NCBI GenBank assembly: GCA_025399215.1 | Contig: MU621275.1 | Span: 1-34,813, forward strand | Direction: 5' to 3' | Source of the DNA: Globomyces pollinis-pini | Lineage: Eukaryota > Chytridiomycota > Chytridiomycetes > Rhizophydiales > Globomycetaceae | Length of the DNA stretch: 34,813 nt | Shown: one piece after another, positions 11,228-34,625 of the stretch | Position numbering within the stretch: position 1 is the stretch's first letter | Layout of the letters: the number at the start of each line of letters is the position of its first letter | Notes under the pieces: generated by a model | Databases searched by the model: none | What the model saw: the letters and a program-made list of their open reading frames with translations, nothing else | What the model was told of the DNA's origin: nothing | Position numbers and translations under genes: made by a program

Positions 11228-13072
11228 ATGACAGAACTACTGAATGTTTTAAATGTCAAGAAGTCAAACAGAATACATGCCGAGGATATGAATGGTCTTG
11301 AGACCTACGACACTAAATTGGGTTCAACAAAGTTACAAACTAGGCGGAATACATATCAAAACTCACTTAATTCTCAAAGACCTACAATCAACGCGATTAA
11401 TTCCAAACTAATAGCATCCGCTGACAGATTAACTTCAGTTTATCATTTATCGTTCAGTCAGAGATGTAGGAATTTTATATCAAGTTCAATTGATACAGTA
11501 ACCAATCAATATCAAAAGCGCGTGAATTATAGCCAAGAAACATGTATATTCCTGATACTCTTACTGCCTATGATTTGGATAATCATAAGATTACTTTTAT
11601 TAGACGATAACATTTTTGATAGCAAAGATAGTCACTCTACATTAAGGCTTATAGCCATAATATCCGCTATAATTGCAGTTTGGTTTTGCAATCTTGTGAA
11701 TTATCGACTTTCTGAGCTATTACATATAGTGCGCGTTTTTAAAGGTTTCAGCACAGATTTACTAATTGATTAGGTACATTGGATAAAGTTAATATTAGGA
11801 AGAGCATCCGTTCAGACTATTGCGCTTGGAGCAATGGGGAATAACCGAAATCAAATGGCACGACTAAGTTGTAAAAATCTTATCTATTTAATAGTAGCAA
11901 TTTGTTTTTTTATATTTTTTCTGATCAATATGCTTTGGTTACAGATTATACCTGTTTCAACAGAGCAAGGTCAAGGCGATATTGAATCCATTGTTTTAGG
12001 GGTTAATTCTACGGCGTTGGATGACTATGAAGTGTTCTATCATGCCATTGGGGTAGAACACAGCTGTACCAATTGCAGTGGACTTACTATCTCAGAATCT
12101 TCTATCCTCTTACCAATAGTTTTAGACTTGGTATCTACAGATACATTATCAGAGGAAATTACTATAACGGTGGAGGATGATATGATTCACATTAATTCGC
12201 AATGCTTAGAAACCCTTCCATCCAATCCTGCTTCTTCAAATCAGATAAATATGACAATTGTAGATATTGTAATGTCAAATGCCTCAACTTTGGTTGTATT
12301 GGATGTGTACTCAACAACATCAACTAGATGCTTTGTGACACTCAGTGATTATTCTGGAACAGTAACACTAAGATATAATAGATCTGTAGAGGGCAATAAA
12401 ATGAAAAGGATAAATATTGACTCTATCAAATCCGTCAATTCTACCAGTGAAAATGATTGTGCTCCAGTTGGTCAGTATTGCCTGGGTCGTTCAGCGCGAG
12501 AGAACCTGTCTCACACATTGATAAGCTTTGCACTAGGCAATAGAAAAGAGTATATCATTTCAAATATTTATATTGATCAACAAATGTTTCCCAATCAATT
12601 AGATGCGCTATTTGAACTGGAAATCAGTAATTTTTTCAGCCTGCTATTACAATCAGCATCATTTCACTTCAAGGATAAATCAAAGTCAAAAACGGTTTCA
12701 ATTTATACTGATCAGGTGGCAATTAAAATTTCACAGCTTGTATGGTCCAAATATCTTACAGTTGGCCTAGGATTGATCACTGTTCTAACATTAACGATAT
12801 CAATATTACTCAATCTGATTAGATTGAATAGATACCCAGCCTTTGTTATAGGCAAAGTAGCATGCACCCTTAAACCTGGTCGCGCCATGTTTCTATCCTT
12901 ATCAGACTATATTGCAAAAATGGATACTGCTGATCATTTAGAAACTTCATGGCATTTACAGCCTTTAAAGTTCGGGGAAGACAAAAAAACCTTGACAAAA
13001 GCAATAGGAAGATTAAAGTACGATAACGCTACTGAAGTGACATATCCAAAACCTCGAAGGCAGTATATTTAA
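11228..13072 (+). CDS. Multi-pass membrane protein with Cys-containing ectodomain, paralog of the 4886-7435 gene
   Basis: Two exons (11228-11744, 11799-13072) join to 596 aa across a 54-nt tandem intron. The ATG at 11228 is chosen; the frame upstream has only a TTG. Layout matches the minus-strand paralog but with a much shorter N-terminal cytosolic region: two helices near residues 108-128 and 140-160, a third near 200-220, and a loop of about 260 residues with Cys pairs (CTNC, and C-x5-C before a conserved LSHTLIS/LSYSLLS element). A fourth helix follows, then a tail with KFGEDKKTLTKAIGRLKYD. Several N-x-S/T sites in the loop support a lumenal or outside position. The intron position differs from the paralog's. 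The two paralogs face away from each other across EMC1, as expected from an inverted duplication. Family not recognised. Confidence 0.75.
11745..11798 (+). other. Tandem double intron (29 + 25 nt, AG|GT junction)
   Basis: The 54-nt intron consists of two complete GT...AG units, 11745-11773 and 11774-11798. Each has a branch-like motif (ACTAAT and GTTAAT) before its AG. Removing only one unit shifts the frame and meets a stop; removing both restores the membrane-protein frame. Confidence 0.7.
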
Positions 13073-13135
13073 TATTCAATGTATTCAAAATAAACTGATT
13101 CATTTGCACTTTATTGAATTGTGAAAAATGAAAGG

Positions 13136-14048
13136 CTACAAAGCTTTCTGTTTCTCATCTTTTAATCCCATAAGCACAACAGAACCAAAAGCGATTTTGG
13201 CTACCATCTGTAGAATTTGACACCTTTTGTTAATACGAAACCCTTACCAAAGTTCACCAGTTTCATAACTGATAGTGTGAAATCGTTGTAATCCCCATAC
13301 AATTGCCACTACTATTTAACAATTGTGATAAATACCTCCATGGTTTCCCATGTAGCAAAGAATCTTTGACCACCAGATAGCTGATCTAGACATTGTAGCA
13401 CCAGTTTCTCCACTAGCACCAACTAAATGCATTTTTTCAACCAAAGGTACCCAAACTCCATAAGCAGAAACAGAAATCCATGCAAATCCAGCCGAAAAAG
13501 GGTTCTTAGTGATAGTGGATAGGAAACCAAAAATATAAACCATAGAGTTATATAATTGAGATTCAGTGCCAACACGTCTTGTTTTGGTGTATTCAGCAAT
13601 GATTTCAATCAAGATTGGAGTCATTAATAATTGTTCTAACCAATTTGCAACATCAACTGGCTAAAAATGATCAGATATCAAACAAATTCATTACTTGTCC
13701 ATTGAATCCTTTCAAAACGATAGACATACGTCCAGGTAAAATAAACGTATCGGTAATTCCCAACACAGTGCAGATAGATGCTAAAGCAAATGCAATACTC
13801 TTTTTTTCCTTTGATTCACTTGCTTGATAAGTCATGAAAAACATAGCTGCAGCACAAAAGAATGCGATTCCCGCAAAGATATATGACATATCTGCACTAC
13901 CACGATTGTAATGATAGTGTCCAAAATCAGGATTATTTTTCAAAAATACTATTGATCCAGCAGTAGCACAAATCCATATGGTTAATTGCTGTTTGACCAT
14001 TCTGTCTAATTGACTGCCCGTATCTTTTGTTACCGTCGCAACATCCAT
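13136..14048 (-). CDS. Orphan 8-TM microbial-type opsin, cyclase-less relative of the adjacent rhodopsin-guanylyl cyclase
   Basis: Four exons with introns 13661-13694, 13309-13335 and 13224-13247 (34, 27 and 24 nt) give 275 aa. The protein has an extra N-terminal helix (near 21-36) plus seven opsin helices, the enzymerhodopsin layout, and ends about 19 residues after the Schiff-base lysine with no enzyme domain. It aligns without gaps to the rhodopsin-cyclase over helix 3 and over helices 6-7. Visible residues: Glu127 at the Asp85 position of bacteriorhodopsin; Gln128 at Trp86; Asn124 at Arg82; Asn224 at Trp182; Gln252 at Asp212; Lys256 retained. The second intron sits at the same column and phase as one in the cyclase gene, showing common origin. 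Likely membrane photoreceptor or a non-canonical partner subunit of the cyclase; function is inferred. It is not a typical NeoR: the acidic residues expected at the Thr89 and Asp212 positions are Met and Gln. Confidence 0.87.
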
Positions 14049-14722
14049 CTCTTCGACAACTAAAGATTTAGTAGTAGTATTGGAATACCAGCGGGGTTGA
14101 TCATTTCTTTTGGGAAAACTTGAGAAGCATAGCTTATTTATGTGATGTTCGCCCCATTCTCCATGGTCGTAAACAAAGACACAGACGATAGTCGCAAGAT
14201 TTCCTTTCAGAACGCGGTAAATATAGCGCTCAGTAAGTAATTGAGAATTATTCTGGTAGGTCGGTCGGCAAACAGTAGGTAATTCACTAGATATTTCAAT
14301 AACAGAGGTCGTTGATGAGTAATTATGAGCTAGTTATCTCCATGTAAACATTTATTTCCTCACGTGTGACAAACAACCCACTGGCTACAATAGATACTTG
14401 AGGACAAGCAGTTCAATGCACACGATAGGGACTAATGATCTGAATATTATACTAATAACTTCCTAAATCTGAAAGAATACGATGTGAAGGATCAATATAT
14501 AAATTAGAAGAATGAGTGAACCATTTCTTTTATCCTTGATTTTATCCATCAACAGTACCTAGTCATGGTCGTTTGCCCACTCCCACTCACTCTGTAGGTG
14601 GATTGATTCTCAAGTTTTTTCCATGATGAGTAATGGATATCCACCCCAACAATACAAACAAATAGCAGGCGGACAATTGATATAAATTGATCATTTTAAA
14701 ATAACTTATACAAACCATTAAA
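14049..14722. promoter_or_regulatory. 674-bp divergent region between the two opsin genes
   Basis: Both opsin genes start here and are transcribed outward, so this region must hold both promoters. It is less AT-rich in its first half than most intergenic DNA in the window. I see no open frame that continues either gene and no named regulatory element. Head-to-head placement fits co-expression in the same cell stage, which is inference. Confidence 0.5.
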
Positions 14723-16360
14723 ATGTCAACGAAACGTAATTAAAATAATCTGATTAGTAGCAACATGGAAACAAAAAGTTGATGATATTACCAACAAAGA
14801 CGTAGTTAACACTGCATCATTAAACACTATCCAAAGAAATATTTATGCTTGGTAAGATTGGTCTTTCAGTTCTAATTCATTTAGGTTTATGATTATTGGG
14901 GTTTTAGCTTTCTATGCTGTTACCAAACGTCAACCAAAGTATGACAGAGAGGAATCGAATATGTGGTACTTTTACACAGCATCTGTATTTGCAATTGGTG
15001 TCTTCTTTGCATGTATTGCCTATTTTAGTGCCCGAACCAAAGAGAAGAAATCATTGGCTATGGTCTTATTCTGGTGTGATTTTATTGCCATGTCCACTTA
15101 CTTATTATCTGCTACTCGTATGACCCACGCTTTACGAGATATCAATGGTTATCCTGTGGAAGTTGCTCGTTATGTAGAATGGTTATCTACATGTCCTGTT
15201 TTAATCTTGTTAATCGGAGAAATTACCAAATGTCCTGAAATTGCTGCTGAAACTATGGAATATGATTATATCATGCTCATCTTGGGATTCATTGGTGCCG
15301 TTACTCGTGAACCAATCTCTTTCTTTTTCCAAATGGTATGTATGGCCTACTTTGCTTTAGTCATTTTTGGCCTAAACAAAATGTTTACCAAGGCTATTAA
15401 TGGCGAGACTGGATGCACCTTGGATCCCAACTCTCTCAAATCTGCCAAAATATTCACCTTACTTTCTTGGAATGCATGTAAGCTAGATCTCCATAACCAT
15501 TATAGTTGCTTTAAATTGGTTCTGCGTTCGATATGAGATCTACAGCTTTGCAACTGGTGAAATGCTTTTCGGTTTATCAGATATATGTGCTAAAGTATTA
15601 CTTACTTTAATTTTGGTCAATGCTACTGTCGAATCTGCACAAAATGAAAGAGTAAATGCATTATCTACCATTGCAAGTGATATGGAAACCGAATTGAATA
15701 ACTCGGATGCTTTACTTTCCAAGATGATGCCACAAGAAATTTTGGATCAAATCAAAGCTGGTAAAGCTACTGAAGCACAAGAGTATGATTGTGTCACCAT
15801 TTTCTTCTCGGATATTACCAACTTTACAGTTATTTCCAGTCAAACATCCACAAAAGAAATGCTTGCTACTCTAAATGCTTTATGGGTTGAATATGACAAG
15901 ATTGCCAAAAAATGGGGTATGTACAAGGTTGAAACTATTGGTGATGCGTACCTTGGGGTAACAGGTTGTCCTGAACGAGTACCAGACCATGCTATTCGAG
16001 CCACTCAATTTTCTGTTGATATTATGGCCATGATCAGTCAATTTAAAACTGCTATGGGATCATCTATTGCAATCCGTATTGGATTAAACTCTGGTCCTAT
16101 TACAGCTGGTATCTTGGGAACCGAAAACCCACATTGGTGTGTTGTTGGTGATACTGTCAATACAGCATCTCGAATGGAATCTACTTCCAAACCTATGATG
16201 ATTCATATTTCAGAATCAGTAAACAAAATATTTTTATTAACTTTAATAGACTCAAAAATTGATTGCAAAATCTGGAATATTTAACATTTCTGAACCAGAT
16301 GTTTTGAACATTAAAGGAAAGGGTTCCATGGTTACATACTGGGTACATGGTAGACTTTAG
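14723..16360 (+). CDS. RhGC: Rhodopsin-guanylyl cyclase fusion (light-activated cGMP synthesis)
   Basis: Five exons (introns 14736-14760, 14852-14884, 15478-15505, 16219-16249) give 506 aa. Helix 0 (residues about 32-48) and seven opsin helices are followed by a short coiled linker and a class III cyclase domain. Opsin residues: Arg130, Glu133 and Trp134 in helix 3, Trp230 in helix 6, Asp258 and Lys262 (retinal Schiff base) in helix 7. The cyclase has metal-binding Asp335 and Asp379. Glu375 (VETIGDAY) and Cys444 (HWCVVGDTVN) are the pair that select guanine, so the product should be cGMP. In Blastocladiella the homolog drives zoospore phototaxis through a cGMP-gated channel. The cytosolic N-terminus is only about 30 residues, much shorter than in that homolog. 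The first intron could end 3 nt earlier (22 nt). An AATAAA lies just after the stop. Confidence 0.93.
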
Positions 16361-16661
16361 AAAGAAAATAAAAAGTTGATTTTTATTTGGCATCTGATCT
16401 AGAGCACATGAATCTTTTCTAACTCATCAAATGGTGATAACAGATCACGTTGAGAGATAACATCTTTGATGATTAACTATGGATATATCATTGATGAAAT
16501 TTTGAAACGATTTTATACTATTTGAAATCTGAGATAAGTATGGACATTGTATAATTGATATTGATCGGTACATTTATAATGACTTTCAAATACAAATTTT
16601 AGAAAAGAATTAAAGTTTAATGAAAATTGAATTTATTGAAATAAGTAGTTTAAATTGTTTT
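16361..16661. other. Convergent 3' region between cyclase-opsin and PWP1
   Basis: This is an AT-rich interval of 301 bp between two stop codons that face each other. It contains an AATAAA just after the cyclase stop. Otherwise it looks like untranslated sequence; I see no gene. Confidence 0.5.
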
Positions 16662-18336
16662 TTAAACATGTTCCATGTTTTCTTCCTCAGAATAATCACC
16701 TTCCATGATTTCATCTTCAAACTCTTCATCTTCATCTGAATTAGGATCATTGTCAGAGTCCACTTGAAGGATTTCTTTGGCAGGTTTCGATCTAACCTTG
16801 GTGGTATGATCCAATTGATTTGGAGGGAATTGTTTACGAACGGCATTATTATCTTCAAGATTCCATAATACTACCTTGCCTTTACTTCCACCAATAGCGA
16901 GAATATAAGGTGAATCTGGTGAAAAGGTTGTGGAAAATACTTTTCCCTATTTTTGATTAGTGTAAAGTTTTCCCTTACTGCATCTAAATCTCGAGATACT
17001 AAGCATTTTGGTTTTGTATCCTGTAATGACCACACTTTAACTTGCTTATCAGCAGAACCTGTGACTAAACATCCAGGAATGTGTGGGTTAACGTCTAATG
17101 CAGAAACAGCAGAGTCATGTGCATGTAAAGTGAATAGTGCTTTAGATTTTGGATTCCTGACATCAAAACATTTAACAATCCCATCTTCTGTACTGACCTT
17201 TAATCGTGTTATTTCAAACTTTCACACTTACATAGAATCGTTCTTGATGGAAAGTATCCCACTTTATACACTCAACATCAGCAGTTAACTTCCATTCGGC
17301 TACTGTGTTGGAAGCTCTAGAATCAAATGCGCAAACCCTTTTATCATATCCTCCTGATACCAAAACACTTGGTTCGAATTTATTCCATACAACAGCTTGA
17401 ACTTTATCTTTATGATGATTAAATGAGGTCACTGCTGAATTAGGTCTAGTTAAATCCCATAATTTAACGGTAGTGTCTGCGGATCCAGTTAAAATTAAAT
17501 TTCGTTGAACTGTATTCCAAGAAATGGACATGACAGCATCGACGTGACGTTCAGCTTGAGGACGTTTTGCAACACGAGCAGGTCCAAATTTGCTTTTCTT
17601 GGACGTTGTACCCAAACTAGCATCAGGGATTTGACCCAAGATACAATCCGGAAACATGGAATCAACAGTGTCCAAGTCCCAAATCTCTACCTGTGGATCG
17701 AAAGTACCAATGGCAACATAATTTCCTGAAATATGAGTAATAGAAATGTATACCTTTGGTGTGAGTATCTGATTTTCTACCAACAGGGAAATCCAACCAC
17801 TCAATTGCCAATGGAAATGAAGGAAGTAAGATATCATGATGAACATAGAGGTTATCTTCTTCTGGTTCGTATAAATAGACTTCTAAATGTGATATATCAT
17901 CTTCAGTTTTGCAGGCAAGAATAAGATTGTCTGTTGGTTCAATATGCATTTCATCTAATTCTTCTTGGTCATCCAGCGCATCATCTAATTCAATATATGG
18001 ATCTTCTTTGTTGTTTGAATAATATGATAATCCTTTGATATTTGAGAACATTGGAGCACCAAATTGATTTGATGGTTCCTCCTCATCATAAGTATCCAAA
18101 TTATAAATTGCAAGTTCATCATCATCTTCCATTGGTTTATCATTTGAATCTTGTTCTTCTACACTATTACCATTTGCTTTGTCTTCATTTTCAGCATCTT
18201 CCAAATCATCTTTAGCCAACTGTAAATGCTGACCCATTTTCTCCTGCATTTTAATGAATTCTTCTTCAGTTAATTGTAATTTTTCTGGAGTTGCAGCAGC
18301 AGCTCCTTGTCGAACCCAAGACAATGCAGATATCAT
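16662..18336 (-). CDS. PWP1: Periodic tryptophan protein 1, WD40 nucleolar protein
   Basis: PWP1 proteins are nucleolar WD40 proteins needed for ribosomal RNA production and ribosome assembly. Four exons (introns 17726-17753, 17198-17231, 16947-16978) join to 526 aa, near the family's usual 500-575. The N-terminus MISALSWVRQGAA is characteristic, followed by an acidic stretch near residues 50-100. WD repeats come next: VAIGTFDPQVEIWDLD, then repeats around LTGSADTTVKLWDL, LVSGGYDKRVCAFDSR, and a CLVTGSADKQVKVWSL repeat encoded after the second intron. The C-terminus ends in a long Asp/Glu tail, common in nucleolar proteins. It converges with the cyclase-opsin and diverges from the SOG2-like gene. 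Identification is firm. Confidence 0.95.
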
Positions 18337-19031: not shown

Positions 19032-20832
19032 ATGCACCATCAAAAATCAAAATCTGTATCTTTTCCAACGTCATCACAAATTATAGAAACACACGATGAT
19101 ATTCTAGATTATATAAAATCTGAAGCTGAAAAATTCGTAACTACATTCAATCTCGCAAATAGAAATTTAGTTCGTATACCAGTAATTCATTCAAATTAAT
19201 TTTAAAGGTCGAAATTCATCTATTAACTCAATTGGAAAGGTTAACATTTGATATCCCTCATTATTTTAGGTATAGTAATCAATTATCTAACATGAAAGGT
19301 ATTTACTAAATTACGCGTTTATAATTAGATTGGGTTTAAACAACAATCGTCTAACTTCATTACCTATACAACTAAATTCTTTATTACAACTGCGATACTT
19401 GAATTTACGATCGAATAGCTTGAAAGAATTTCCAATAATTGTATTGACTCAAAATTCACTAAACACTAGCTGGGTCAAATGAATGTCCTAGAAGTCCTTG
19501 ACGTTAGTAAGAATAAAATCAAGCGCTTTCCATCAGAAACTGACTTTGGGAATTTGATACAACTAAGGGTTATTTGCTTATTATTAACCATTTTCAGGTA
19601 ATCATAAATAATTAACTTGGAATTATAGGTAATATTTTATGATTGATAACAATATTAGGTACTCTCGATTTCAAACAACAAAATTCAACAACTACCAAAA
19701 TACCTTCACCAAATGTCACTATTGAAAGGTATATTATATTAATCGTTGACGCAACATCTAGTGTTCAAATTGGGTAATTGTTTGTGATATTGATTAAGTA
19801 GGCCACAATCCGTTGGTTTGGCCCCCGAATGATCTTTTACAGCCAGAGGTATGATATTGAACAACTAAACATCATCTAGCAAGAATCGGATCAAGAAGTT
19901 TGGCTCACTGCTTTGAGAGATTATATCAGAATCAATGGTATAAATCATAGATTAACATGATAGATCCACCACAGTTACAGCAAAGACAAACACTGTTAGT
20001 ATCGGATTCCACACCAAGTTCCAGAAGTTCATCTCCGATATCAAATTTACTATATCGAACCAGTATAATTGAATCACATTCTTGTCAACAGAACGTGAAT
20101 TTATTCCTTAGTACATTTCAAATACCATCTTTTACAAAAAAAGATCGAGATTTATTAGAAAATTTTGTTTCAATACTCTATGGTGTCACTGAAATTCATT
20201 CGATATCATCCAGTTTGTCGAAATTAATTTTCTTTCAGAAACCTAGATTATCAAAATCACAATTAGAACTGGAATCACAAATATTAGAACAAAAAGTATC
20301 CAGCTTAATAATCACATTTCAAGATATTATACAATCAACACTGACTTTACATGTCTTGAATGATTTGAAAACAAAGGTTATTGGAATGATAAAATCAACT
20401 AAAAAATTGATTATTACCGTTTCTGAAATATTTGATCAACAAATACAAAGTTTGGTTATTCATCCAATGACTTTGAATTCTATGATGGCATCTTGGTCAA
20501 AATCAAATCAAACATTGAATGATACATTGATGAATACAAAACTATCATTAACTATTTTACCAATTGCAAAAAATCTCAAAGTATTTGAAAAACTATATAC
20601 ATTACTATTAACATTAAAATCAAGATTTGGACCGATATTAACAGATAAAGTTAACATGATTCTAACAAAAACTATCGAATACTGTTTCTTGGGTGATATC
20701 AAACTACTTGATAGTGTCATTACTTTACTCACCAGTTGTCGTAAAGTAGGAAAAGGAAAAGAATTCATGACCGTTTGTGGTGATATTGCCAATGAAAGTC
20801 AAATTGTTGCCAAATATTTCAATTCAAATTGA
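19032..20832 (+). CDS. SOG2: SOG2-like leucine-rich-repeat protein of the RAM pathway
   Basis: SOG2 proteins act with the NDR kinase Cbk1 and Mob2 in fungal polarity and cell separation. Nine exons (19032-19181, 19208-19239, 19329-19440, 19470-19568, 19659-19728, 19762-19773, 19802-19848, 19880-19937, 19964-20832) join to 482 aa with no stop. The first half is a run of leucine-rich repeats with motifs such as LGLNNNRLTSLP, LNLRSNSLKEFP, LDVSRNKIKRFP and LSISNNKIQQLP, closed by GHNPLVWPP. The second half is the SOG2 domain (residues about 195-480), Ser-rich at its start and then helical. Two introns are triple units (89 and 90 nt), and exon 6 is only 12 nt. The protein is shorter than yeast SOG2. 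Exon choice rests on the repeat pattern and is consistent throughout. Confidence 0.87.
19240..19328 (+). other. Tandem triple intron in SOG2 (30 + 29 + 30 nt)
   Basis: The 89-nt intron is made entirely of three GT...AG units: 19240-19269, 19270-19298 and 19299-19328, joined AG|GT twice. The middle unit has a clear CTAAC branch motif. Leucine-rich-repeat continuity (LERLGLNNN) requires removal of all 89 nt; keeping the middle unit as an exon breaks the frame. Confidence 0.75.
19569..19658 (+). other. Tandem triple intron in SOG2 (29 + 31 + 30 nt)
   Basis: The 90-nt intron splits exactly into 19569-19597, 19598-19628 and 19629-19658, each starting GT, ending AG and holding a TTAAC or ATAAC branch motif 8-12 nt before the AG. 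The flanking exons read IQLR|VLSISNN only when all three are removed. Confidence 0.78.
19762..19773 (+). other. 12-nt microexon of SOG2
   Basis: Four codons' worth of sequence lie between a 33-nt intron (19729-19761) and a 28-nt intron (19774-19801). Including it gives the repeat LLKVFKLGHNPLVWPP, exactly the leucine-rich-repeat pattern. Skipping it removes four residues of the repeat core without changing the frame. Confidence 0.75.
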
Positions 20833-20998: not shown

Positions 20999-21735
20999 TC
21001 AATTAAGGTTTCGTTGTGTGGAACGGGGTATCATGAATTCACTTGGTTTGAATAGTGGAAACATATGAACAGTATCATTGAACTTGACACTTTGAGTATG
21101 TTTTGAATTTGGTTCATGTTTTTTAAGTATTGGTTGAGGATTGGTATCAATTGTTGGCTGTAAATCTATACAGGATGGTTCAGGTGCAATTGTTTGATAT
21201 ACTATAGTCTCATCAGATGAGTAAATAGTAGAATCATCATTCTTTGATTTCAAACCTCGGTTTTGCATGGTCAAGTCCGAGTAATCTAAATCAGTATCAC
21301 TGTCTTCTCTCATCAAATTATTTTGATCAACACCACCAGACTAACAGTAAATTAAAAGATTGAAATAATTACCTTTAGTTTTTCAAAGAACCCACAATTT
21401 CTAAAATACAAGAAATTTTTTGGTTGAGAGATTTTGGATTGTGATGATAGATCAACCAATGCCTTTCTTCCATCCAATAACTGATCAATAATAACTCTTT
21501 TCGATCCTAACATGACGCTATCTAGAGCAACATTGGATTCATCAAATATAGTTGAACAAGAATCAACTTCAACTGTGGAATTGGTATGTGGTTTATCGGG
21601 CGAGACCCGAGGTAATTTCTTTGATGAATCCAATTCGGATGATATATTACGAGTGTTCATTACAACTGTTGAAATGACTTCTGTAGATTGACAAAGTAAT
21701 GAATGATTCAATTTGGACCTGTAAGAATGATTCAT
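20999..21735 (-). CDS. Small paralog family, copy A (tandem array member 1)
   Basis: Two exons (21735-21373, 21340-20999) join across a 32-nt phase-0 intron to 234 aa. The exon 1 end carries the family hallmark: IIDQLLDGRK, a short spacer, then LYFRNCGFFEKLK right at the splice site. Exon 2 begins SGGVDQN and contains VYQTIAPEPS, QPILKK and SVKFNDTVHMFPLFKP. The ILK element followed by VKF resembles the paired SILK and RVxF docking motifs of protein phosphatase 1 partners, but the residues before both are not ideal here. The start is uncertain: ATG at 21735 or at 21660 (MNTRN, matched by MKTRN in copy C). Frame with similarity to DNA upstream of copy B also lies at about 21860-22110, so a 5' exon is possible. 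Function unknown. Confidence 0.7.
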
Positions 21736-22367
21736 TGGGTTCACTACAACGTTCTCCACAGTTTTATATACTTGAATTATACCATAGATGGTTGATATTG
21801 ACTCATGATTTTTCAAAAATCGGTCATATTCTCTTTTAGGTGTAAGATTCGTTTGTGGTGTTTGCAACTTGAATCACATTCCCTTTCCCACTATTTTTAT
21901 CTTTTAAAGTACGATAGAGGCGAGATTTGAAACCATCTGGTTTTGGACACCTCTGTGAAGACAAATGGACACTATTCCCGGACTTGTGTCTCATTTGGAC
22001 TTCAAAAATTAGGACTTTTTTTTTTAAATCAAGCACTTTGATTGACCAACATACTGGAGATATATAAGCTGACAAACATGGTTGAATTCTACGTTTTGTC
22101 TTCACGTTGTGCAACTAGTTTAAGTAAGTTGAGGATTCCGGATTCACTTGAGAAAAGTCGATTCTACTTTTTTACTTTATTAATCCAAATTCATCATAAT
22201 ACATTATTTACTCAATGTTTTTATGAAATGCAGATATTTGTGTATTTTAGGATCCTAAAAATTGTACATCTATATTCATTCATTTACCATTCAAAGGTAC
22301 CGTTAACTTACACGTAATTTTAGCATAATCGCTTTCCCAATTAGATTATATATTTATTATTAGGTAT
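21736..22367. other. Spacer between paralog copies A and B
   Basis: It holds the 5' region of copy A and the 3' region of copy B. The part at about 21865-21985 resembles 23500-23600 upstream of copy B (shared blocks CTTGAATCAC, CATCTTTTGA/TATCTTTTAA and GGACACC), so the duplicated unit is longer than the coding exons. A minus-strand frame of 92 codons at 21836-22114 may be a further exon of copy A; unproven. Confidence 0.45.
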
Positions 22368-23229
22368 TCAGGCAAAAGTCTTACAGTTGCTCTGTTGTGA
22401 GGACCGATGTGGATTAGGAATAACAAAATCATTTGGTTTGAATAGTGGAAACATATGAACTGTATCATTGAATTTGACACTTTGGGGAAGTTTTGTATTT
22501 GATTCGTGTTTTTTAAGTATAGGTTGAGGATTGGTATCAATTGCTGGTTGTAAATCTATACANNNNNNNNNNNNNNNNNNNNNNNNNNNNNNNNNNNNNN
22601 NNNNNNNNNNNNNNNNNNNNNNNNNNNNNNNNNNNNNNNNNNNNNNNNNNNNNNNNNNNNNNNNNNNNNNNNNNNNNNNNNNNNNNNNNNNNNNNNNNNN
22701 NNNNNNNNNNNNNNNNNNNNNNNNNNNNNNNNNNNNNNNNNNNNNNNNNNNNNNNNNGGTTCAGGGGCAATTGTTTGAAATACTATGGATTCAGCGGATG
22801 AGCTGACAGTGGAAGTCTCATCATTCAACGATATCAAATCCAATGTTTTCATGTTAAAATCGGTGTAATCCAAACCACTGATGTTACTTTCTCTCTTTAA
22901 GGTATTTTGATCAACTCCACCAGACTAACAGAAAGTCAAAAGATTCAAGTATTTACCTTTAGTTTACCAAAGAATCCATCATTTCTAAAGCATAAGTAGT
23001 TCTTTGGTTGTTTGGATTGTGAGGATTTGTCAACCAATACTTTTCTTCCATCCAACAGTTGATCAATGATTGCATTTTTGGAACCCAGCATATTGGAATC
23101 CGTCACACTTTCCGTTGGTAATTCAGATATGTCAACGGCAGTTGCACACGAGTCCAATTCATTGGAAGTGATTCGTTCCAATTTGTCGGTTGTTAACCAA
23201 AACGGTAATTTCTTTGCGGTAAAAGCCAT
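22368..23229 (-). CDS. Small paralog family, copy B, interrupted by an assembly gap
   Basis: Exon 1 (23229-22957) starts MAFTAKKLPFW, without the longer N-terminus of A and C, and ends NDGFFGKLK at a 32-nt intron (22925-22956). Exon 2 (22924-22368) begins SGGVDQNTLKRE, contains VFQTIAPE, then runs into the N run. Beyond the gap it continues with the IDLQPAIDTNPQPILKK-type segment and SVKFNDTVHMFPLFKPNDF, ending at 22368. Compared with copy A only 4 nt are missing at the gap, and 362 sequenced bases plus 4 is a multiple of three, so the gene is probably intact. Family hallmarks are as in copy A: IIDQLLDGRK, the intron after KLK, and ILKK plus VKF elements. Confidence 0.65.
22563..22757. other. 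Assembly gap (195 N) inside copy B
   Basis: A run of N splits exon 2 of copy B. The flanks end and restart at positions that are only 4 nt apart in copy A, so the stated size is unlikely to be real. Either the two contig ends nearly touch, or they come from different copies of the tandem array and one or more whole copies are missing. Confidence 0.8.
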
Positions 23230-23771
23230 CTTAAAAGTAAAGTTTTGCAATGGCTTAAAATAAGGGATGATTCATTCTTATTATTGGTTAGAATGATTCA
23301 TTTCGGAATGGTAACAATTATTCATTGGGTCCAAAGGTATCCACATTTGTAAATCTATTACTGATTCCAAAGATGAATATGAGTCAATATCAGTAACTGA
23401 TAGTAAAAGTTGCTCCTGTTTAAAGCATTGACTGTTATGTTAAAATCATTTACTGGTATGATATTGCTTTGTTTTGGTGCCCTGATCAAAACTATTCAGC
23501 TTGAATCACTTTCCTCAACCTTCCTTCATCTTTTGAGGCACATATGCGAATTTGGATACAGTTTGAAAATTTTGGGATGGACACCTTTTCTGGACTTGAA
23601 CGTTTTTAAACATGAAACCTGGACTAATTTTCAATTAGGTATTGACGGTAGAGGAATAAATTAAATCTTGCTTATTTCTCTGTTTTAATTTAAATTCTAC
23701 AACCGAGTTTGATCAAAGTATTCCGGATTCCCCGAATTTTTTTATTAAGAGACTATTACATTACCGTCTAA
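23230..23771. other. Spacer between paralog copies B and C
   Basis: Contains the upstream region of copy B, with the palindrome-like word GAATGATTCATT present twice at about 23262-23300, and the block related to the region upstream of copy A (about 23500-23600). The plus-strand open frame at 23410-23664 has no support and lies across that duplicated block. Confidence 0.45.
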
Positions 23772-24571
23772 TTAGATGTTTTTATTGTTACCCAGCTCAA
23801 AGCCATGTAAGTTGCCCTGCTTTGTGGACCGAGGTGGGTTAGGAATGACAAAATCATTTGGTTTGAATAGTGGAAACAAATGAACAGTATCATTAAACTT
23901 GACTGTTTGATTCTGTTTGGAAATCGGATCGTGTTTTTTAAGGATAGGTTGAGGATTGTCATCAATTGTTGGTTGTAAACTTAAGTAAGACGATTCAGGG
24001 GCAATTGTTTGATATACTACGGATGCAGCACATGAGTCTACAACATAAGAATCATCATTTAACGACATGGAGTCTAAGTTTGGTATTTTGAAGTCTGTGT
24101 AATCCAAATCGGTTATGTTGGCTTCTCGCTGAAGGGTATTTTGATCAACAGTACTGGACTACCAGAAAATGAATATATTGAAATATCAATATTTACCTTT
24201 AGTTTTCCAAAGCATCCATAATTTCTAAAATACAAGTAGTTTTTCGGTTGAGAGATTTTAGATTTTGCCGATTTATCTACCAACGCTTTTCTTCCATCCA
24301 ACAGTTGATCAATGATAACTCTTTTCGAGCCTAATACACTGGAATCCATCCCACTTTCCGTTGGTAATTCAGATATTTCAAATGCTGTTGCAGAAGAATC
24401 TATATCTGCACAGGAATCGGTGTCCAAACAATCGGGCGAAGCCCAGAATGGTAGTTTCTTTGTTGATATCACTAAGTCTGGTGGGGAATTGCGAGTTTTC
24501 ATAACAACTGTCTCAATAATTTCTGTAGATCGACAACCTAACGAATATTTCATTATGAATAAGAATGACAT
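23772..24571 (-). CDS. Small paralog family, copy C
   Basis: Two exons (24571-24197, 24158-23772) join across a 38-nt phase-0 intron to 253 aa. The N-terminal part shares RSTEIIETVVMKTRN with copy A. The centre shares TKKLPFW and ISELPTES with copy B. Exon 1 ends with IIDQLLDGRKALVDKS and NYGCFGKLK at the splice. Exon 2 opens SSTVDQNTLQRE and carries VYQTIAPESS, NPQPILKKH, TVKFNDTVHLFPLFKP and a C-terminus richer in Asn and Gly. It is the most complete of the three and is read divergently from copy D. The start may be the internal ATG at 24553 or the one matching MKTRN. Confidence 0.7.
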
Positions 24572-26144: not shown

Positions 26145-26269
26145 TCCTACTTTATACCAGCGTACTGCTTCAAAGTACCAACGTAGTTTTATTATAAATC
26201 TATTGCCAAGTCCAATAAACATTTAAATTTTACAAAGAATTCTGGTACTTGAAAAGTTTGATAAAATTA

Positions 26270-27344
26270 ATGGAACAACAAAAACGACAACGAGTAGATG
26301 AAATCAATAAAGCAATTCCTCCTTCGTTATTTCTATATAAACCTCCTGCTGATATCACCCTACAGTTACAAAAATATCTATTGTATTCCATTAATAAGGT
26401 AGTCAAGAAAGCCTTAATCTTAGGTAATTTCATCAAAACTCAATAGAAAAAGGCATTAACTCAAATGAAATCAATACAACAAATGAAAAACGTATCTAAA
26501 GTAGAAATAGAAGTATTTGGAACTATAATTAAAGGTAGATTGAAGGAAAGTTGGGAATTATTACTGATAAACATACTCAAAGAAGAATTCAATTACCAGT
26601 TCAATCAGAAACAAGTAATAATGTATTATTTAATATCAAAGTATTTAAGAATGATCGAAATCAATGTTTCTTTAAATCTGATATGACCATGGCACAACAT
26701 GCCTGTTTCAATCAACTACTAAACTCTCTGGTGAATCCAAATTCAAAAGTTAAATATGTACATTTAAAAGAAATCGATCAGTTTTATAACATTCGTGGAA
26801 TTGGAAAAGTTCGTCAAACAATTGACCAAAAATCAAAAAAAGTAAAGTCAATACTATCTCAATTATTATGGATCATTTAATCTACTTGTTAGAAAATTAT
26901 TAATGCTTTATAGATTAAAAATTGTATTTTAAAAACTAAAGTAGAAAATTTGGAAATATATATGCCAAATTCACAATTAGATTGTAGAATATCAGTGAAT
27001 ATTGAAACCCAATGTAAGACCTTTAAATCTAAAAAGTCTTCATAGTGACGTTACCCGAAGAATTAAAATCGCCGGATTTTGAACGACAAAAAGATCGAGT
27101 TTCATATTCATTATCACCTTTTCAAATTGATCTTACTCAAGTCAAGTCAAATGCAGTAAGAATGAACTAGATTCATGTTTAGAATGGTACCGATGATGTA
27201 ATGCACGAATTGGAAATCGAATTAACAGATATAAATGAATTTACAAACGATATTCAATTGGAAGGACCACCATCCAAACGCGTATTAGACACTATTGATG
27301 CGTTCATGAACAATATCCGTATATTGAGTAGAAAAGCCAAATAA
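26270..27344 (+). CDS. CET1: Fungal-type mRNA 5'-triphosphatase (capping enzyme beta subunit)
   Basis: Removes the gamma phosphate from nascent mRNA 5' ends, the first step of capping, using the tunnel fold found in fungi and protists. Six exons (introns 26399-26446, 26513-26538, 26842-26913, 27014-27045, 27156-27182) give 289 aa. Hallmarks in order: EIEIEGKLGIITD (first metal-binding Glu pair), RRIQLPVQSET, SDMTMAQHACFNQLLN, KYVHLKEIDQFY, KVRQTIDQ, KTKVENLEIYMPNS followed by DCRISVNIE, KDRVSY, FQIDLTQV and HELEIELTD (second Glu pair). A further 27-nt stretch, 26623-26649, has GT...AG ends and no stop, and may also be an intron. The protein lacks the long N-terminal extension of yeast Cet1, so it is close to a minimal catalytic domain. 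It sits between paralogs D and E. Confidence 0.88.
26399..26446 (+). other. Tandem double intron in CET1 (25 + 23 nt)
   Basis: The frame requires removal of 48 nt, from a phase-0 donor at 26399 to a phase-0 exon at 26447. It splits into 26399-26423 and 26424-26446, both GT...AG, joined AG|GT. The second unit has only a weak branch motif, so this is the least certain tandem intron. Confidence 0.55.
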
Positions 27345-28380: not shown

Positions 28381-29573
28381 CTAGTTATAGGTTGACCAAG
28401 CAACTACATCTTCGAATACATCAAAATAGAGGCAATGGCCATATCCTATTTGTTAATACATAATCCGTACCAGGTTTAATAACTAATGGACATTTAACTT
28501 GCTCAGCAATGTATTTGGCCATGGCTGGAGTAGTACTACCGTCACATTCACCATGCCAGACACAAACATCCGAGACGATATCTATTCTTGTTAAATTGGT
28601 TAAATAATTACTAGATAATTCGAAACCCCAAGGTAGTCCTACTATTTAATTGAAAGTATCACATACCTATAGCAATTAGTATATCTTAATCATACCCCAT
28701 AATGAATATTCATATAGTTCTGCATCTCCTTGATCACGGGCATATATTTCCATCATACTGTTACAGAACATATACTCTATATCAGGTCTAAAGATAAAAT
28801 TTGTTGATACTATTACTGTATTAACAGTTTTTGGTCGCTTAGCGGTTGCTGATTTAATTCTAATCTATGATATCCAATAGGATTCGATAAAACATCCTTA
28901 GGATCTTTTTTTGCCAGATATCTTAAGAAACCAGGGGCATATGCGGTACAAAACCATGCTAATTTGAATGCCCATGGCATTTCTATAACCAATAAGCAAC
29001 TCAAACAAAACCTAATGTTCAGTTTTCAATTAAATATACCTCTATATACATTCGGTGCATCATGGGGAGCAACTGAGCTAATAACAGCAACGCGATTCAA
29101 TCTTTGAGGTAATGCATGTGCAACAGCCTTACATATTTAATTTATATCTCTTACTAGTGCATAAGGACCACCGGCTGAATATCCAATTATTGAAACTTTT
29201 TTGAGATTTAAATAGTTTAAGAATTGTAAGACATCAATTGGCCAGTCCATTATTTTTCTATTTGGCTGAGGAGACGATAATCCAAATCCAGGTCTTTCCA
29301 ATACAAAAAGTCGAATTTTCTATTTGTTAATTAACCTCGAATCATACATGTTTGGTAGTTTTCTTGACAATTGAAGGATGAGAGAATAATCGAGAACCAG
29401 GAATACCAGGGAATCTACAAATGAAATCATTCATCAAGATACAATAAAATAACTGGTAATGATTCTGGATTATCATGCCAGCAATATTCCATATAACCCA
29501 GTAACCTTCCGTCATGTAATTCCATTGTATTTCCTTTTGGTTTTGGGTAATTGCATGACTTTAGTTTCTTCAT
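28381..29573 (-). CDS. Alpha/beta-hydrolase fold protein
   Basis: Eight exons (introns 29415-29442, 29320-29347, 29128-29154, 28983-29039, 28788-28825, 28639-28695, 28446-28470) join to 310 aa. Order of motifs: LHDGRLLGYMEY (typical strand 1), a LLFPGIPGSRLF oxyanion turn, LERPGFGLS, the nucleophile elbow GYSAGG (Ser114), WHGECDG (acid Asp) and GYGH (catalytic His293). The usual His of the HG oxyanion motif is Phe-Pro here. All three catalytic residues are present, so an active hydrolase is likely; the substrate is not predictable. Two introns are double units of 57 nt. The start at 29573 is the first ATG in frame; an overlapping frame at 29512-29697 is a different frame and was not used. Confidence 0.85.
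28639..28695 (-). other. Tandem double intron in hydrolase (29 + 28 nt)
   Basis: On the minus strand the first unit is 28695-28667 and the second 28666-28639, joined AG|GT. The first has a TACTAAT branch motif. Removing both gives SLWGLPWGFEL, the expected hydrolase sequence. An acceptor 3 nt earlier would also stay in frame. Confidence 0.7.
28983..29039 (-). other. Tandem double intron in hydrolase (28 + 29 nt)
   Basis: Units 29039-29012 and 29011-28983 on the minus strand, joined AG|GT. Removing either unit alone meets a stop; removing both gives VYREMPWAFKLAW, as expected for the cap region of this hydrolase family. Confidence 0.72.
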
Positions 29574-30053
29574 TGATGCATTCAAAGCAAACAGTTTCGA
29601 ATCCAGGTGAAGCCTTTGAAACAAACAATGTGCAATAACCACTCAAAGAATTCATAGCGTGTTTTTTTAAATATAACGTACTATTAATGGTATACATATT
29701 AACATTGATGATGTTATCTTTGAGACCAGGTTTCTTTTGTGTTGACCTGAAGCACTTTACAGTAATTCTATCGCGCTTATTGTATACATCATTGAATCTA
29801 ACTGTTGATAATAAATTGGCATGAATGCTTTTAAAACTCTTTGATATTAATTCTAATGGTCAAATCACCGCAATCCATGTACTTTTATCGATCGTGTTTA
29901 AAAACAATGCGACATATAATCCACTTCAAATCAATAACAATTGACTCTATCAAAAGGACGGTCAAGTCCTTTTCATTTCATCTCCAAATCAAGGATCATT
30001 TGCCATAAAACGGGTATCACCAAATCAACGTTCCGCCGACTTTTTTTACAAAA
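29574..30053. promoter_or_regulatory. 480-bp divergent region between hydrolase and glutamine-synthetase-like gene
   Basis: Both genes start at its edges and read outward. The minus-strand open frame at 29512-29697 overlaps the hydrolase start in another frame and could be untranslated leader. No named element is visible. Confidence 0.45.
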
Positions 30054-31416
30054 ATGAACTCAAAGATTCCAGCTACTGTTGAGCATGTTCAAGTTACTTG
30101 GACCGATCTTTGCAACTTGACTCGTGCGAGAATGGTATTGAAATCAAGATTTGATGATATTAAAACAAATGGTCTATCTGTCACTTCTGCCATTCTCAGT
30201 TTTCCAATGATGTATGATGGAATGCTACCAAATGAGAGCAGTGCTGGGGAAGTCCGATTGGTTCCAAGCGCAACGGTGAAGGCATTACCTTGGGCACCTG
30301 AAGTTGGAATCACTTTTGGTAGTTTTAGTGATGGTGATAAACCATGGAATCGTTGTCCAAGATCGTTCTTGGCTAATCAAGCTCAAAAATTGCAGTTGGA
30401 ATCATTAAAGTTGACTGTTGGTTTCGAATTGGAATTTGTGGTGAATAACTTGGATGGGACACCTTTGGATCAAACCAGCAAGTTCAAATAATAGCTAACT
30501 GTGTAGTTTATTGCGAGACAAAATCCTTTAGAGGTAAAGGTTGGAAAGTGTTATCAAAGATTGTTGAATCCTTAAAGCAATTGGATATTCCAGTTTGGCA
30601 ATACCATAGTGAATCTGCCCACGGACAAGTATTATTTCATAATCTAATAGTTGAATAGTTTGAGATTTCCATTGGTCCATTTGTAGATTCCCCACTATTG
30701 GCTGCTGATTCATTGGTTTTGGCCAGACAAACAATCTATTCTGTTGCAGATACTTTGGGCTGTCAAGCTACTTTCTTACCAAAACCATACCCAATGCAAG
30801 CAGGTTCTGCAGCTCATACCCATGTTTCCCTCACACATGGAAATGAAAACGTCATGTCTAAACCTATCGGACATTCATTCTTGGCTGGTGTTCATCATCA
30901 TCTTCCAGATTTGCTACCAATTTTGAATCCAACTTTAAATTCTTATGATCGTTTACAAGCTCATTGTTGGGCAGGTGTTTATCAATGTATTGGAACAGAA
31001 AACAAAGAAGCACCCATTCGTTTGATTAAAGGTCCAAAGGGTGGTTTAGAACGATTTGAAATTAAAACTGCGGATGGGACTTCAAATCCATACTTGATGC
31101 TTGGAATCTACATTGCAGCTGGATTAGATGGTAATTTTTTTTATAGATCTTAAAATGTACAGGTGTTAAAAGTAAATTCAATTTACCAAGTGAAATCAAT
31201 GTGGATCCTGCTACTTTACCTGAATCAGAACGTCCACTTTTATTCTCAACCACTCTTACTGCTGCATTAGAAAAATTCAAAAAGTCTGAATTTGTATTAA
31301 ATACTTTTGGATCAGATCTGTTGGAATTGATTGCCAAGGGTCGACAAGCTGAAATTGATATTTTTGAACAATCGACTCCAGAACAAATTAAAGAATTTTT
31401 ATTGAAACGTTATTAG
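30054..31416 (+). CDS. Glutamine-synthetase-like protein (FluG C-terminal / type I-like)
   Basis: Four exons (introns 30478-30506, 30629-30658, 31131-31162) join to 423 aa. The fold belongs to the glutamine synthetase superfamily, which joins ammonia or an amine to glutamate using ATP. The N-terminal beta-Grasp part starts with VTWTDLCNLTRARM. The catalytic part has GFELEF (metal Glu), SAHGQFEIS, AGSAAHTHVSL (the H-x-H ATP and metal site) and NKEAPIRL (the Arg loop that binds glutamate phosphate). The variant of the Arg loop and the length resemble FluG-type and gamma-glutamyl-amine synthetases more than housekeeping glutamine synthetase. True substrate is unknown. The first intron has a GC donor (GCAAGT), needed for the frame. 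Convergent with GPN1. Confidence 0.88.
30478..30506 (+). other. 29-nt GC-AG intron
   Basis: The frame between PLDQT and YCETKSFRG requires a phase-1 donor. The only fitting site is GCAAGT, a GC donor that otherwise matches the consensus perfectly, and a GCTAAC branch motif lies before the GTAG acceptor. All other resolved introns in the window use GT. Confidence 0.7.
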
Positions 31417-31558
31417 GTTCATAAAATAAATGTATTTGGCCATACAATTCGAGATCTATTCGGTATTTATTTACAAATGAGAAAATATAATATTTGAATA
31501 CAGCATATTTAGTTTATTACCAAAAGTCAAGAAGTGAAATTAGAAATTCATAAAGTTC

Positions 31559-32749
31559 CTATTTGTTTAAAAATCGTTCAAAAGATGAATCCTCCATCGT
31601 AGATGTTTGATTAGAATTCAAAGTTGAAGTATTTTCTATAAAATTCATTATTGATCATGATTTCATACCAGTTTGATCCAATTTAATATCATGAATCAAT
31701 TTTTCTAAATTTTCTTGTCGTTTTAATTTTTCCTTGTTTTGCTTATTTAAAATAATTTGTTGTAATTGTGGTTGATATTCAGTTTCATATTCTTTGGTAG
31801 CATTTTGAATGGCTTCAAATAATTCTTCCATTCCTTCTCCAGTAACAGCTGAGACTCCAACTACCTATAAAAGTAAATCGAATTTGAGAATCATGATACT
31901 CGTAAATGTTGATAAAATTCTTCCAACACTAAAGACATTGAACTAATTAATGATCCCATATATGTTGAATCTTCTTCCATTGCAAATTGAAATGCCTATA
32001 ATGAATTCAAGATCAATATTACTTCATAATCTTTCATCCATTCCAAACAAAATTCATGTGAGACCACTTTGATTAAAAGAAAATGAATACCATCAGTTTT
32101 GTTGAATACCAATACAAAAGGTAATTTAGTTTTATAAAGAATGGATACGGCATACAACATATTGGACATGAATGTAGTTGGGGAAGCTGATCGAGGAGTA
32201 TCAATGATATAAAGTACCACTGTTGGATATGAAGCAGATACCGTATCAGTTATAATAGCACCCTAAAAAATTAATCAATATTCATTCTAGTTATTAACTG
32301 ATGCTGACCAAGTAAATATTTCAATTTGACCTGGTGTATCAATCAAAACATGATTAATCTTGTCACTCTTTTTCTCAATTAAATCCAATACTTGATCAAA
32401 TTTTGTTGTAAATAGATTCAATGCTGTTAAAATCCCACCCTATTGAATGGATTAAAGAAATGAATTACATTAGGACCAAGTTGATACTGTTTCATGACTT
32501 GTTTGAAATTGACTGTATCTCGAATATCAACATTTGCAGAGTATGGTAATTTAGCAACAGCTATCGAATGAATGATTGAAAAAATGTACCTGGATCAAGA
32601 TTGATGATATATCGTGATGATTTTAATGAACTCAGGTATGCATTTATTCGTTGCAATAGTGTCGTCTTCCCTGTTCCTGCCATGCCGATGAATAACAAAC
32701 ATGTTGGTTTCTTGGTTTCTTTTTTACTGGTTTCTTCTGTTGAACTCAT
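31559..32749 (-). CDS. GPN1: GPN-loop GTPase 1 (Npa3)
   Basis: GPN1 is an essential GTPase needed for assembly and nuclear import of RNA polymerase II. Eight exons (introns 32561-32589, 32440-32468, 32263-32298, 32067-32090, 31996-32022, 31865-31899, 31636-31668) join to 325 aa. Motifs: P-loop GMAGTGKTT (residues 22-30), [14 protein letters not shown], the family-defining LGPNGG loop split by an intron, [37 protein letters not shown] for guanine recognition, and [11 protein letters not shown]. The C-terminal tail is short compared with human GPN1. The first in-frame ATG giving MSSTEE is used; the frame upstream is only TTG-started. Identification is firm. Confidence 0.95.
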
Positions 32750-32911
32750 TGGTGCAAGTCTTAAAAAAAACAAAAAAAAATATGAAGAAATTAAACTGGA
32801 AAGAGGAAGATAGAAAACCTATTAAAAGAGCTAATGAAGGATATTAAAGACAGATACTGGTACGTGGACTTTCATTAAACAATTACTAAAAACTGATTTA
32901 GTTATTTGTAT

Positions 32912-34625
32912 TTATTGAACTTTTTTAATCTGTTGTACAAATATCGATCGATAGAATCCAATAATACCAGTCAATATATCCAATTGGAATTTCAAATATA
33001 CCAGCCCAATATTAGCAAGTAATTGCATCACGGTCCCCCGTTTAGGTTGAGATGCAGTAAGATCATTTGATAGGTATCGCTCCACCAATCCCCGTTTATC
33101 TTCCGATTCGGCTGTCCATGGGAGACACTCTCGACCTTCCGGTTCCCAACCCCTAGGGATTCCGATTCGTTCGGCAACTCGAATGGCAGATGCTACACAA
33201 CCTTCCAGCAGTGGCATACCTGGCCAGACCCAGCTTCCTACAAAGTAGATGTTCTGTTGGCCTTGATAATGTTCAATAATATTTAGGGCTTCACAACTTT
33301 GTTCTGTAACATACGAACGTGGGAAGGTATACTGATTTAAAATCTTTTCTTTTGGGATAACTGGTTTGGGATTTACAAACAAACAAGAAGTTTCAAAGAA
33401 ATCAGGGGAGCCTACAAGTTAGCAATCGTTTTTTTTTTACCTTCAGGTAGTCGATGAGTGTAATTCACCCAAATGGTTGCCATGGATTCTTTTCCATCGG
33501 TGGTACAGTTAATTCCACGCCATTGTGTCTTATCAAAAGGCATCAAAGATTTCTCGGTATGAACAACCACAGGAACACTTTCATACTTGAATGTATTCAA
33601 ACAGTCCATCAAGGGCGATAATGGAGGTTTGACTGAATCTTGCAATTCTGTTGGTGGTTTTCTTGCTAATATTTTTTTGGCAATTGAACCTTGAACTGCA
33701 AAAACGATTTTGTCGAATGTATGTAATTTTAAATCTTTGGTTTGAATAACAACTTGATCATTTTTTAAAGTCCATGCACCAATAATTTCTTGATTGTAAT
33801 GGACTTCTTTAACATTTGATAGTAATTTTTGACACAATAATCGCATACCACCTTTTGCTTGAGCAAATGTAGAACCAAATGGTGCAATTACATGTAAAAT
33901 AATTCGTGCAGGGTAATCTAATAGTGCTTGATGAGTAGATGTGGCCATGGTTGCCAAAGCTGGTAATAATACCAACTTTACAAATTCATCACTAAAATGG
34001 TGTTCCTTTACAAAATCACCAAAAGTTCCTTTGATTGAATTGAATGATTTTGTTTGAGTTAAATAAAAAGTGTGTAATAGTATTCTTAGAAATTCGAATA
34101 AAAACTGCAACGTTAACAACATTGACGTTCCTACTATTAAGAAACTCTTTGACTATTTACCAGCAAACGTAACTAGAGCCCAAGGGAATTCAAACCCGAA
34201 AAAGAAATGTCGATGAAAACTAAAGTATGACTTGTTTTGGTTTTCTAATGATTAGAGAGAGTTTATACGTTGAGAGGCAGGTCCATCCCAATGGTATTCA
34301 GCAACTTCATATTTCCCTACTGTAGTTTCCATGCCAACATATTTAAATAATTTGAAAAGCGAAGGATAGTAAGCTTCATTAATAGAACGCATGGGAACAT
34401 CAATTCGAACTTCATCATTGTTTATATCTTTAACAGATACACTAGCAACATCCTAATAATAAAAAAGTAGATGAAATATACCTAATAACAATTAAGTATT
34501 ATAATGGATATTACCATTCCAGTTTTATCAGCGAATTCGAATATGGTAACATTCAATTGTTTGGACAGTAGATGAGCAGCAGTTAGACCAGCTAATCCAG
34601 ATCCAATTACAGCAACTTTTTCCAT
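32912..34625 (-). CDS. FAD-dependent amine-oxidase-like protein (COG2907 type)
   Basis: Five exons (introns 34453-34514, 34245-34268, 34131-34160, 33412-33440) join to 522 aa. The N-terminus is a Rossmann dinucleotide site, VAVIGSGLAGLTAAHLL. The middle contains HFFFGFEFPWAL and an LDYPARIILH segment. The C-terminal FAD-contact region reads IYFVGSWVWPGMPLLEGC, then SAIRVAERIG. An unusual extra C-terminal part of about 90 residues holds a hydrophobic segment near the end that may anchor it to a membrane. Bacterial members often sit beside cyclopropane-fatty-acid synthases, hinting at lipid oxidation or reduction, but no such partner is in the window. It is related more distantly to phytoene desaturases, so a retinoid or carotenoid link cannot be excluded, nor is it shown. 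The first intron is a 62-nt tandem pair. Confidence 0.85.
34453..34514 (-). other. Tandem double intron in the FAD enzyme (33 + 29 nt)
   Basis: Units 34514-34482 and 34481-34453 on the minus strand, joined AG|GT. Each alone leaves a stop in frame; together they join ADKTGM to DVASVS, keeping the Rossmann fold reading frame. Confidence 0.72.

Follow-up and report, generated by a model that had tools for sequence, protein, structure and literature searches.

Introns of the chytrid Globomyces pollinis-pini typically have a length of 23–38 nucleotides (nt), and a number of longer intervening sequences in this genome are arrays, that is, chains of such introns joined AG|GT, in whose units the signals of donor, branch site, and acceptor are preserved. 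The arrays were analyzed starting from one stretch of DNA, referred to as the window, which comprises all 34,813 nt of contig C186 (MU621275.1) in the 18.5-megabase assembly of 459 contigs. Proteins predicted from the window show 99 to 100% identity to those of Globomyces sp. JEL0801 over the aligned part, and the host is a rhizophydialean chytrid of the genus Globomyces. The arrays are probably complete U2-type introns lined up head to tail, the exons between them having zero length; they are probably removed unit by unit and have probably grown by tandem duplication.

Arrays in the window and at eight further loci

As originally predicted, seven introns of the window split exactly into GT...AG units of 23 to 33 nt joined AG|GT (Table 1). 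These arrays span 48 to 90 nt, and the reading frames stay open once they are removed. Removal of 11745–11798 yields an open frame of ~600 codons, and removal of either unit singly leads to a stop. The leucine-rich-repeat gene features two three-unit arrays, and its repeat frame runs on across both 19240–19328 (LTQLER|LGLNNNRL) and 19569–19658 (LIQLR|VLSISNNKI). The α/β hydrolase aligns with Boothiomyces without gaps at its two junctions (28639–28695 and 28983–29039); a search of solved structures with this hydrolase gave an alignment that stops short of the array junctions. The protein predicted across 34453–34514 matches a JEL0801 protein (100% identity, rounded, at 100% coverage), and this amine-oxidase-family protein of JEL0801 is in turn gapless against Boothiomyces at the junction. 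Support is weakest for 26399–26446, in a gene that we take to be RNA-triphosphatase-like, where the borders come from the gene model alone and the second-best alternative trails by a margin of just 1.9.

Upon dinucleotide shuffling of the interiors, 82, 1, 0, 58, 43, 46, and 139 of 1000 shuffles are divisible into units by chance, with the arrays taken in order of ascending position. Hence, with 4 to 14% of shuffles divisible for two-unit arrays, a single double array is weak evidence, but the seven jointly are not. This chance divisibility is what speaks for chance or artefact, be it through AG|GT words that happen to occur within long introns, through faulty gene models, or through repeats in the assembly; homology across the junctions and the annotation-free spacing tests described below contradict such an origin, the probability of which is close to nil.

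Table 1. Units of the seven window arrays, listed in the direction of transcription within each array
Unit	Position	Strand	Length (nt)	Evidence
Unit 1 of two-unit array 11745–11798	11745–11773	+	29	GT..AG, exact division, branch-like motif; frame open only with both units removed
Unit 2, array 11745–11798	11774–11798	+	25	Exact division; frame
Unit 1 of three-unit array 19240–19328, leucine-rich-repeat gene	19240–19269	+	30	Exact division; repeat frame
Unit 2, array 19240–19328	19270–19298	+	29	Exact division; repeat frame; following junction also detected by annotation-free scan
Unit 3, array 19240–19328	19299–19328	+	30	Exact division; repeat frame
Unit 1 of three-unit array 19569–19658, same leucine-rich-repeat gene	19569–19597	+	29	Division; repeat frame; scored scan
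Unit 2, array 19569–19658	19598–19628	+	31	Division; annotation-free scans
Unit 3, array 19569–19658	19629–19658	+	30	Division; annotation-free scans
Unit 1 of two-unit array 26399–26446	26399–26423	+	25	Division; scored scan; only gene model for borders
Unit 2, array 26399–26446	26424–26446	+	23	Division; scored scan; only gene model for borders
Unit 1 of two-unit array 28983–29039, α/β hydrolase gene	29012–29039	−	28	Division; gapless against Boothiomyces at junction
Unit 2, array 28983–29039	28983–29011	−	29	Division; Boothiomyces alignment
Unit 1 of second two-unit array in the hydrolase gene, 28639–28695	28667–28695	−	29	Division; scored scan; Boothiomyces alignment
Unit 2, array 28639–28695	28639–28666	−	28	Division; scored scan; Boothiomyces alignment
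Unit 1 of two-unit array 34453–34514, amine-oxidase-family gene	34482–34514	−	33	Division; scored scan; homology
Unit 2, array 34453–34514	34453–34481	−	29	Division; scored scan; homology

Eight further arrays with 44 units in total were fetched from the genome, picked from TAG|GTA matches for several junctions. They have a length of 103 to 285 nt, and all 16 terminal units measure 24 to 32 nt. The largest consists of ten units (285 nt) and lies in a PHYHD1-like gene on contig C12 (L033; array at C12:42085–42369). Its borders are backed by solved homologues, as are those of a six-unit array in an MCM8-like gene (L034) and of a five-unit array in a UBE2G1-like gene (L037). In all three, removal of the whole array gives a protein continuous with the solved homologues—in the alignment of the MCM8-like gene, one residue is gapped immediately ahead of the junction. 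The borders of L039 are supported by WD40 similarity, and a free-length gene model picked the same borders for L036 and L038; a solved-structure search for L036 gave nothing useful.

The protein deposited for the ten-unit locus of G. pollinis-pini, BC833DRAFT_47563 (P0121), contains 19 extra residues, which are the exact translation of units 4 and 8. It could thus be an instance of regulated retention, in which units are kept as coding micro-exons that diversify proteins. However, the insertion sits in a conserved stretch, and both PHYHD1 and Boothiomyces are without it. The array has likely misled the gene prediction into retaining the two units, an error that explains the protein better, and regulated retention is very unlikely to account for the arrays. 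This one case is also a warning that automatic gene models can retain array units as false exons.

Spacing and splice signals across the genome

The intron population was described by a self-trained gene model with a flat length prior, for which 265 kilobases (kb) of the same genome—the window and stretches of C1, C2, C3, and C4—served as training data. The intron lengths feature a sharp peak at 23 to 38 nt with a mode of 28 to 29 nt. YTRAY is present in 236 of the 376 introns of this size, with its A mostly 6 to 12 nt before the intron end. The window contains 40 such introns by gene model and hand count, the model having missed genes, and the total of short introns in the genome is estimated at ~26,000. 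As judged by eye, avoidance of lengths divisible by three looked absent from the gene-model lengths and junction distances. Since the gene model makes many calls of 40 to 150 nt that look spurious, the share of long introns being arrays is not measurable by it, and annotation-free spacing tests were therefore relied on.

A genome-wide AG|GT scan, suggested together with the original prediction, finds abutting units in excess. Genome-wide counts of an acceptor-side half and a donor-side half, each with its branch motif and k bases apart, give 361 matches at k=0, as compared with 76 at k=1 and 92 at k=3. Within the 265 kb, 4 or 5 cases of abutting branch-bearing units are found, depending on which of two patterns is used (3 and 4 outside the window), the means for k=1–30 being 0.2 and 0.4. 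Scored units abut 16 times against a mean of 2.2 (k=1–60) and, outside the window, 9 times against a mean of 1.9 and a maximum of 6. A looser pattern without the branch motif shows only a small rise at k=0, from ~73 to 92. The window is rich in arrays, with 7 junctions against 9 in the other 230 kb sampled at an equal threshold. From the threshold-corrected scored excess outside the window, the number of AG|GT junctions in the genome is roughly estimated at ~1000, with a large error.

Successive junctions provide a second measure of spacing. Pairs of TAG|GTA junctions amount to 414 matches genome-wide with a spacing of 14 to 44 nt allowed; among the 100 of these matches listed, 78 distances fall at 23 to 33 nt, 20 at 34 to 41 nt, and 2 at 14 to 22 nt. 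These distances reproduce the intron-length peak, and the effect is genome-wide. The combination of TAG before and GTA after the intron occurs in none of 368 single introns. AGGTA triples number 304 at unit spacing and 14 at shifted spacing, six of the latter looking like arrays read with one junction skipped. Taken together, the spacing data support AG|GT arrays as a genome-wide, non-random architecture.

Stwintrons, nested introns of which the inner one splits a splice element of the outer one, are likewise complex intervening sequences of several U2 introns. Their AGT overlap (YAGTA with one shared G, as in [D1,2]) has 647 matches genome-wide, whereas ~490 are expected by rough arithmetic from k=1 and k=3 with a correction for the pattern being one base shorter. 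The units of the arrays, however, lie directly side by side, with GT and AG complete in each and no base in common, which bears out the original distinction from nested stwintrons. In addition, the scored scan gives 7 at an overlap of −1, which is, again by rough arithmetic, below the expectation for one base fewer. It is therefore extremely improbable that the arrays are stwintrons; a modest number of one-base-overlap cases may occur elsewhere in the genome, but these are not what the described arrays are.

The splice signals were assessed in 165 distinct units derived from the 100 AGGTA-triple matches listed of the 304, the branch motif not being a selection criterion. The motif is found in 89 of the 165 units, compared with 27 in shuffles (standard deviation (SD) 4.6, maximum 41) and with 23 or 21 in reversed or reverse-complemented unit interiors. 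Single introns carry it at about the same rate (219 of 376). The acceptor is preceded by G at position −3 in only two of the 165 units. Of the features of a U2-type intron, GT donor and AG acceptor are present in each unit—both being part of the search—and the branch motif is present in the units as a population. These data support the view that the units look like complete introns, each equipped with a donor and an acceptor and, as a population, with a motif for the branch site. The original prediction that most units carry a branch-like motif is borne out less fully: among the window units, YTRAY located 5 to 13 nt from the end is found in 9 of 16.

The same signals bear on removal of an array in one step, in which the first donor would be paired with the last acceptor and the internal units would be relics of past duplications. 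The messenger RNA (mRNA) would be identical, and a 79-nt intron in the UBE2G1-like gene is evidently removed in one step. However, relics should lose their signals. In arrays of dissimilar units (50 of 70 bins of 400 bases, with all listed neighbors at p > 0.1), the motif is nevertheless kept in 54 of 111 units, against 17.5 in shuffles (SD 3.8, maximum 31). GAG acceptors are almost absent from these arrays (1 of 111), although decayed arrays without AG|GT words escape the search and are uncountable. A unit that keeps its signals despite having lost the resemblance to its neighbors most simply still has to be spliced, and one-step removal is unlikely.

Removal, growth, and origin of the arrays

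Removal unit by unit would go hand in hand with a spliceosome working by intron definition, in which the nearest donor is paired with the nearest acceptor ~28 nt away. Following this nearest-pair rule, an array would be excised one unit at a time, each unit being autonomous and every removal leaving a functional neighbor. Whatever the order of excision, and even if an early donor were paired with a late acceptor, the identical mRNA would result, and growth by exact units would thus be nearly neutral. Growth would proceed by tandem duplication of the intron unit, probably aided by the short AGGT repeats at the unit ends. Such a duplication would leave almost no mark on the mRNA; the copies would then diverge while selection maintains the splice signals of each unit. 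A more far-reaching proposal, for and against which the chances appear evenly balanced, is that intron length is quantised: intron definition acts as a ruler of ~28 nt, and introns are polymers to which tandem duplication adds, and from which deletion takes away, whole units. If so, order-free, zero-exon arrays of up to ten or more units would constitute a route of intron growth and would offer a natural setting in which to study how ultrashort introns are spliced recursively. Whether a spliceosome can remove 28-nt units serially and how introns grow both become approachable in this fungus; Globomyces strains are kept in culture.

Similarity between neighboring units is the sole direct trace of origin. 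At p < 0.01, 19 of 100 adjacent pairs score as similar, located in 13 of the 70 bins, and runs of like units occur at C12, C68, C60, and C37. With five obvious repeat sets dropped, the remaining 83 pairs resemble each other somewhat more in the 3' half (0.38 versus 0.32 expected) than in the 5' half (0.34 versus 0.30). Near-identical or similar units, which are candidates for recent duplications, are located at C68:15902–16041, C60:58940–59059, and C264:19743–19881. Furthermore, C2:114782–114855 holds a perfect 23-nt tandem repeat that fits the AGGTA ladder and is possibly coding rather than intronic.

The arrays could also have arisen, as the original prediction suggested, by repeated insertion of new introns at existing AG|GT junctions, the inserts being mobile or introner-like; this is compatible with removal unit by unit. 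Most neighbors do look unrelated, with a median p of 0.28 for the 100 pairs and of 0.40 without four obvious duplicate arrays. Exons following an array start with GT in 5 of 15 cases, compared with 13.6% for single introns (binomial p 0.04, a weak effect with some borders set by eye). Among 533 introns and units, a weak similarity between loci is seen in 23 pairs at a score of at least 10, compared with 5 in one shuffle. However, no near-identical pair between loci is found among these 533, which represent ~2% of the estimated introns and are too few to exclude a family. The best between-locus score is 14, exact copies within arrays reach 21, and clear tandem copies are found instead. Insertion is hence a possible but rather unlikely origin. 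Tandem duplication is well supported for some arrays, and the remainder may reflect old duplication or repeated insertion alike.

Several observations weigh against complete, tandemly duplicated introns that are removed one by one. When the upstream branch motif is displaced, 223 matches are still obtained as compared with 361, and much of the 361 thus consists of ordinary introns after exons ending in YAG. The reversed-pattern controls are high, with 351 versus 361 at k=0, 531 versus 414 for TAG|GTA, and 110 versus 304 for AGGTA triples. At shifted AGGTA spacing the reversed pattern gives 85 against 14, and its counts also exceed those of the pattern in the k=1, k=3, displaced-branch, and AGT-overlap searches; we infer that it is a poor control, the reversed words ATGGA and ATGA being common in coding sequence. 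Indivisible long introns far outnumber divisible ones in the gene model, with 128 versus 12 of 140 calls when no margin filter is applied and 9 versus 4 of 13 at a margin >3; many of the indivisible calls are probably false, and some are real. In the fetched arrays, only 21 of 44 units have YTRAY at the expected place, and L040, with its four units, lacks it there throughout. The exon borders of L035 and L040 were set by eye, and L035 has an open frame across the array. With 57 of 70 bins lacking similar listed neighbors at p < 0.01, duplication is only putative for most arrays, and a single, possibly coding repeat accounts for two of the 13 similar bins (C2:114782 and C2:114805). Finally, the 79-nt intron at 667–745 of L037 (C43:23500–24300), in the UBE2G1-like gene that also holds the five-unit array, exceeds one unit length and is removable in a single step. 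It contains no internal acceptor, since AG occurs only inside the donor (positions 4–5) and at the end, and the sequence joined by its removal, NIEAA|KQWRED, aligns gaplessly to solved homologues. Long introns are thus not always arrays, and the intron machinery limited to ~28 nt, which the original prediction had assumed, is not supported, a strict limit being contradicted by this intron.

Apart from the arrays, the window contains two genes arranged head to head, at 13136–14104 on the minus strand and 14723–16350 on the plus strand, which we take from their translations to be rhodopsin-like, the plus-strand one presumably being a rhodopsin–guanylyl cyclase fusion. Three to four tandem copies of one protein gene of unassigned family are located at 20999–24553 on the minus strand, one of them incomplete and near a run of N at ~22563–22757. 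Rfam gives no match on the window at curated thresholds.

Comparison with known systems

In the open-licence literature searched, including the portions consulted of PMC7789003 and PMC5880011, no report of head-to-tail arrays of complete introns was found. Array growth by whole units would therefore, as far as this literature goes, be an unreported route of intron growth. The mikrocytids feature uniform introns of 16 to 17 nt (PMC10245619). The narrow distribution of intron lengths is a common property, and the mikrocytid account mentions no head-to-tail arrays in the parts drawn on here. In Cryptococcus, an intron-containing repeat changes its copy number and thereby adds introns (PMC2395259). 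That repeat of ~107 nt, as described in the sections consulted, carries exon ends, so that the resulting introns are separated by exons, whereas the repeated unit here is the intron alone.

The stwintrons of ascomycetes are described, in the parts of the sources used, as complex intervening sequences in which two or more U2 introns are combined (PMC7138796, PMC9024468, and PMC8469720). An AG directly upstream together with a GT directly downstream is, according to the portion consulted of PMC9024468, absent in 117 stwintrons. Stwintrons are nested and order-dependent—[D1,2] overlapping at AGT—whereas the units of G. pollinis-pini are concatenated, up to ten in the fetched arrays, and would be order-free.

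The ratchet points of recursive splicing in Drosophila, as presented in the part consulted of PMC8605326, consist of a juxtaposed AG|GT (apparent zero-nucleotide exons), and the intron falls into consecutive pieces without coding letters between them. The arrays share this juxtaposition and this division. Ratchet points, however, are located within long introns and depend on a cryptic exon at the junction. The fetched arrays cover 103 to 285 nt and those of the window 48 to 90 nt, and in the arrays examined each junction is directly followed by an intron-like unit of 23 to 36 nt, which is partly a result of the search design. Recursive splicing is mainly known as a means of handling very long introns, whereas in G. 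pollinis-pini the AG|GT geometry is found at the opposite extreme, with hundreds of junctions in a small genome.

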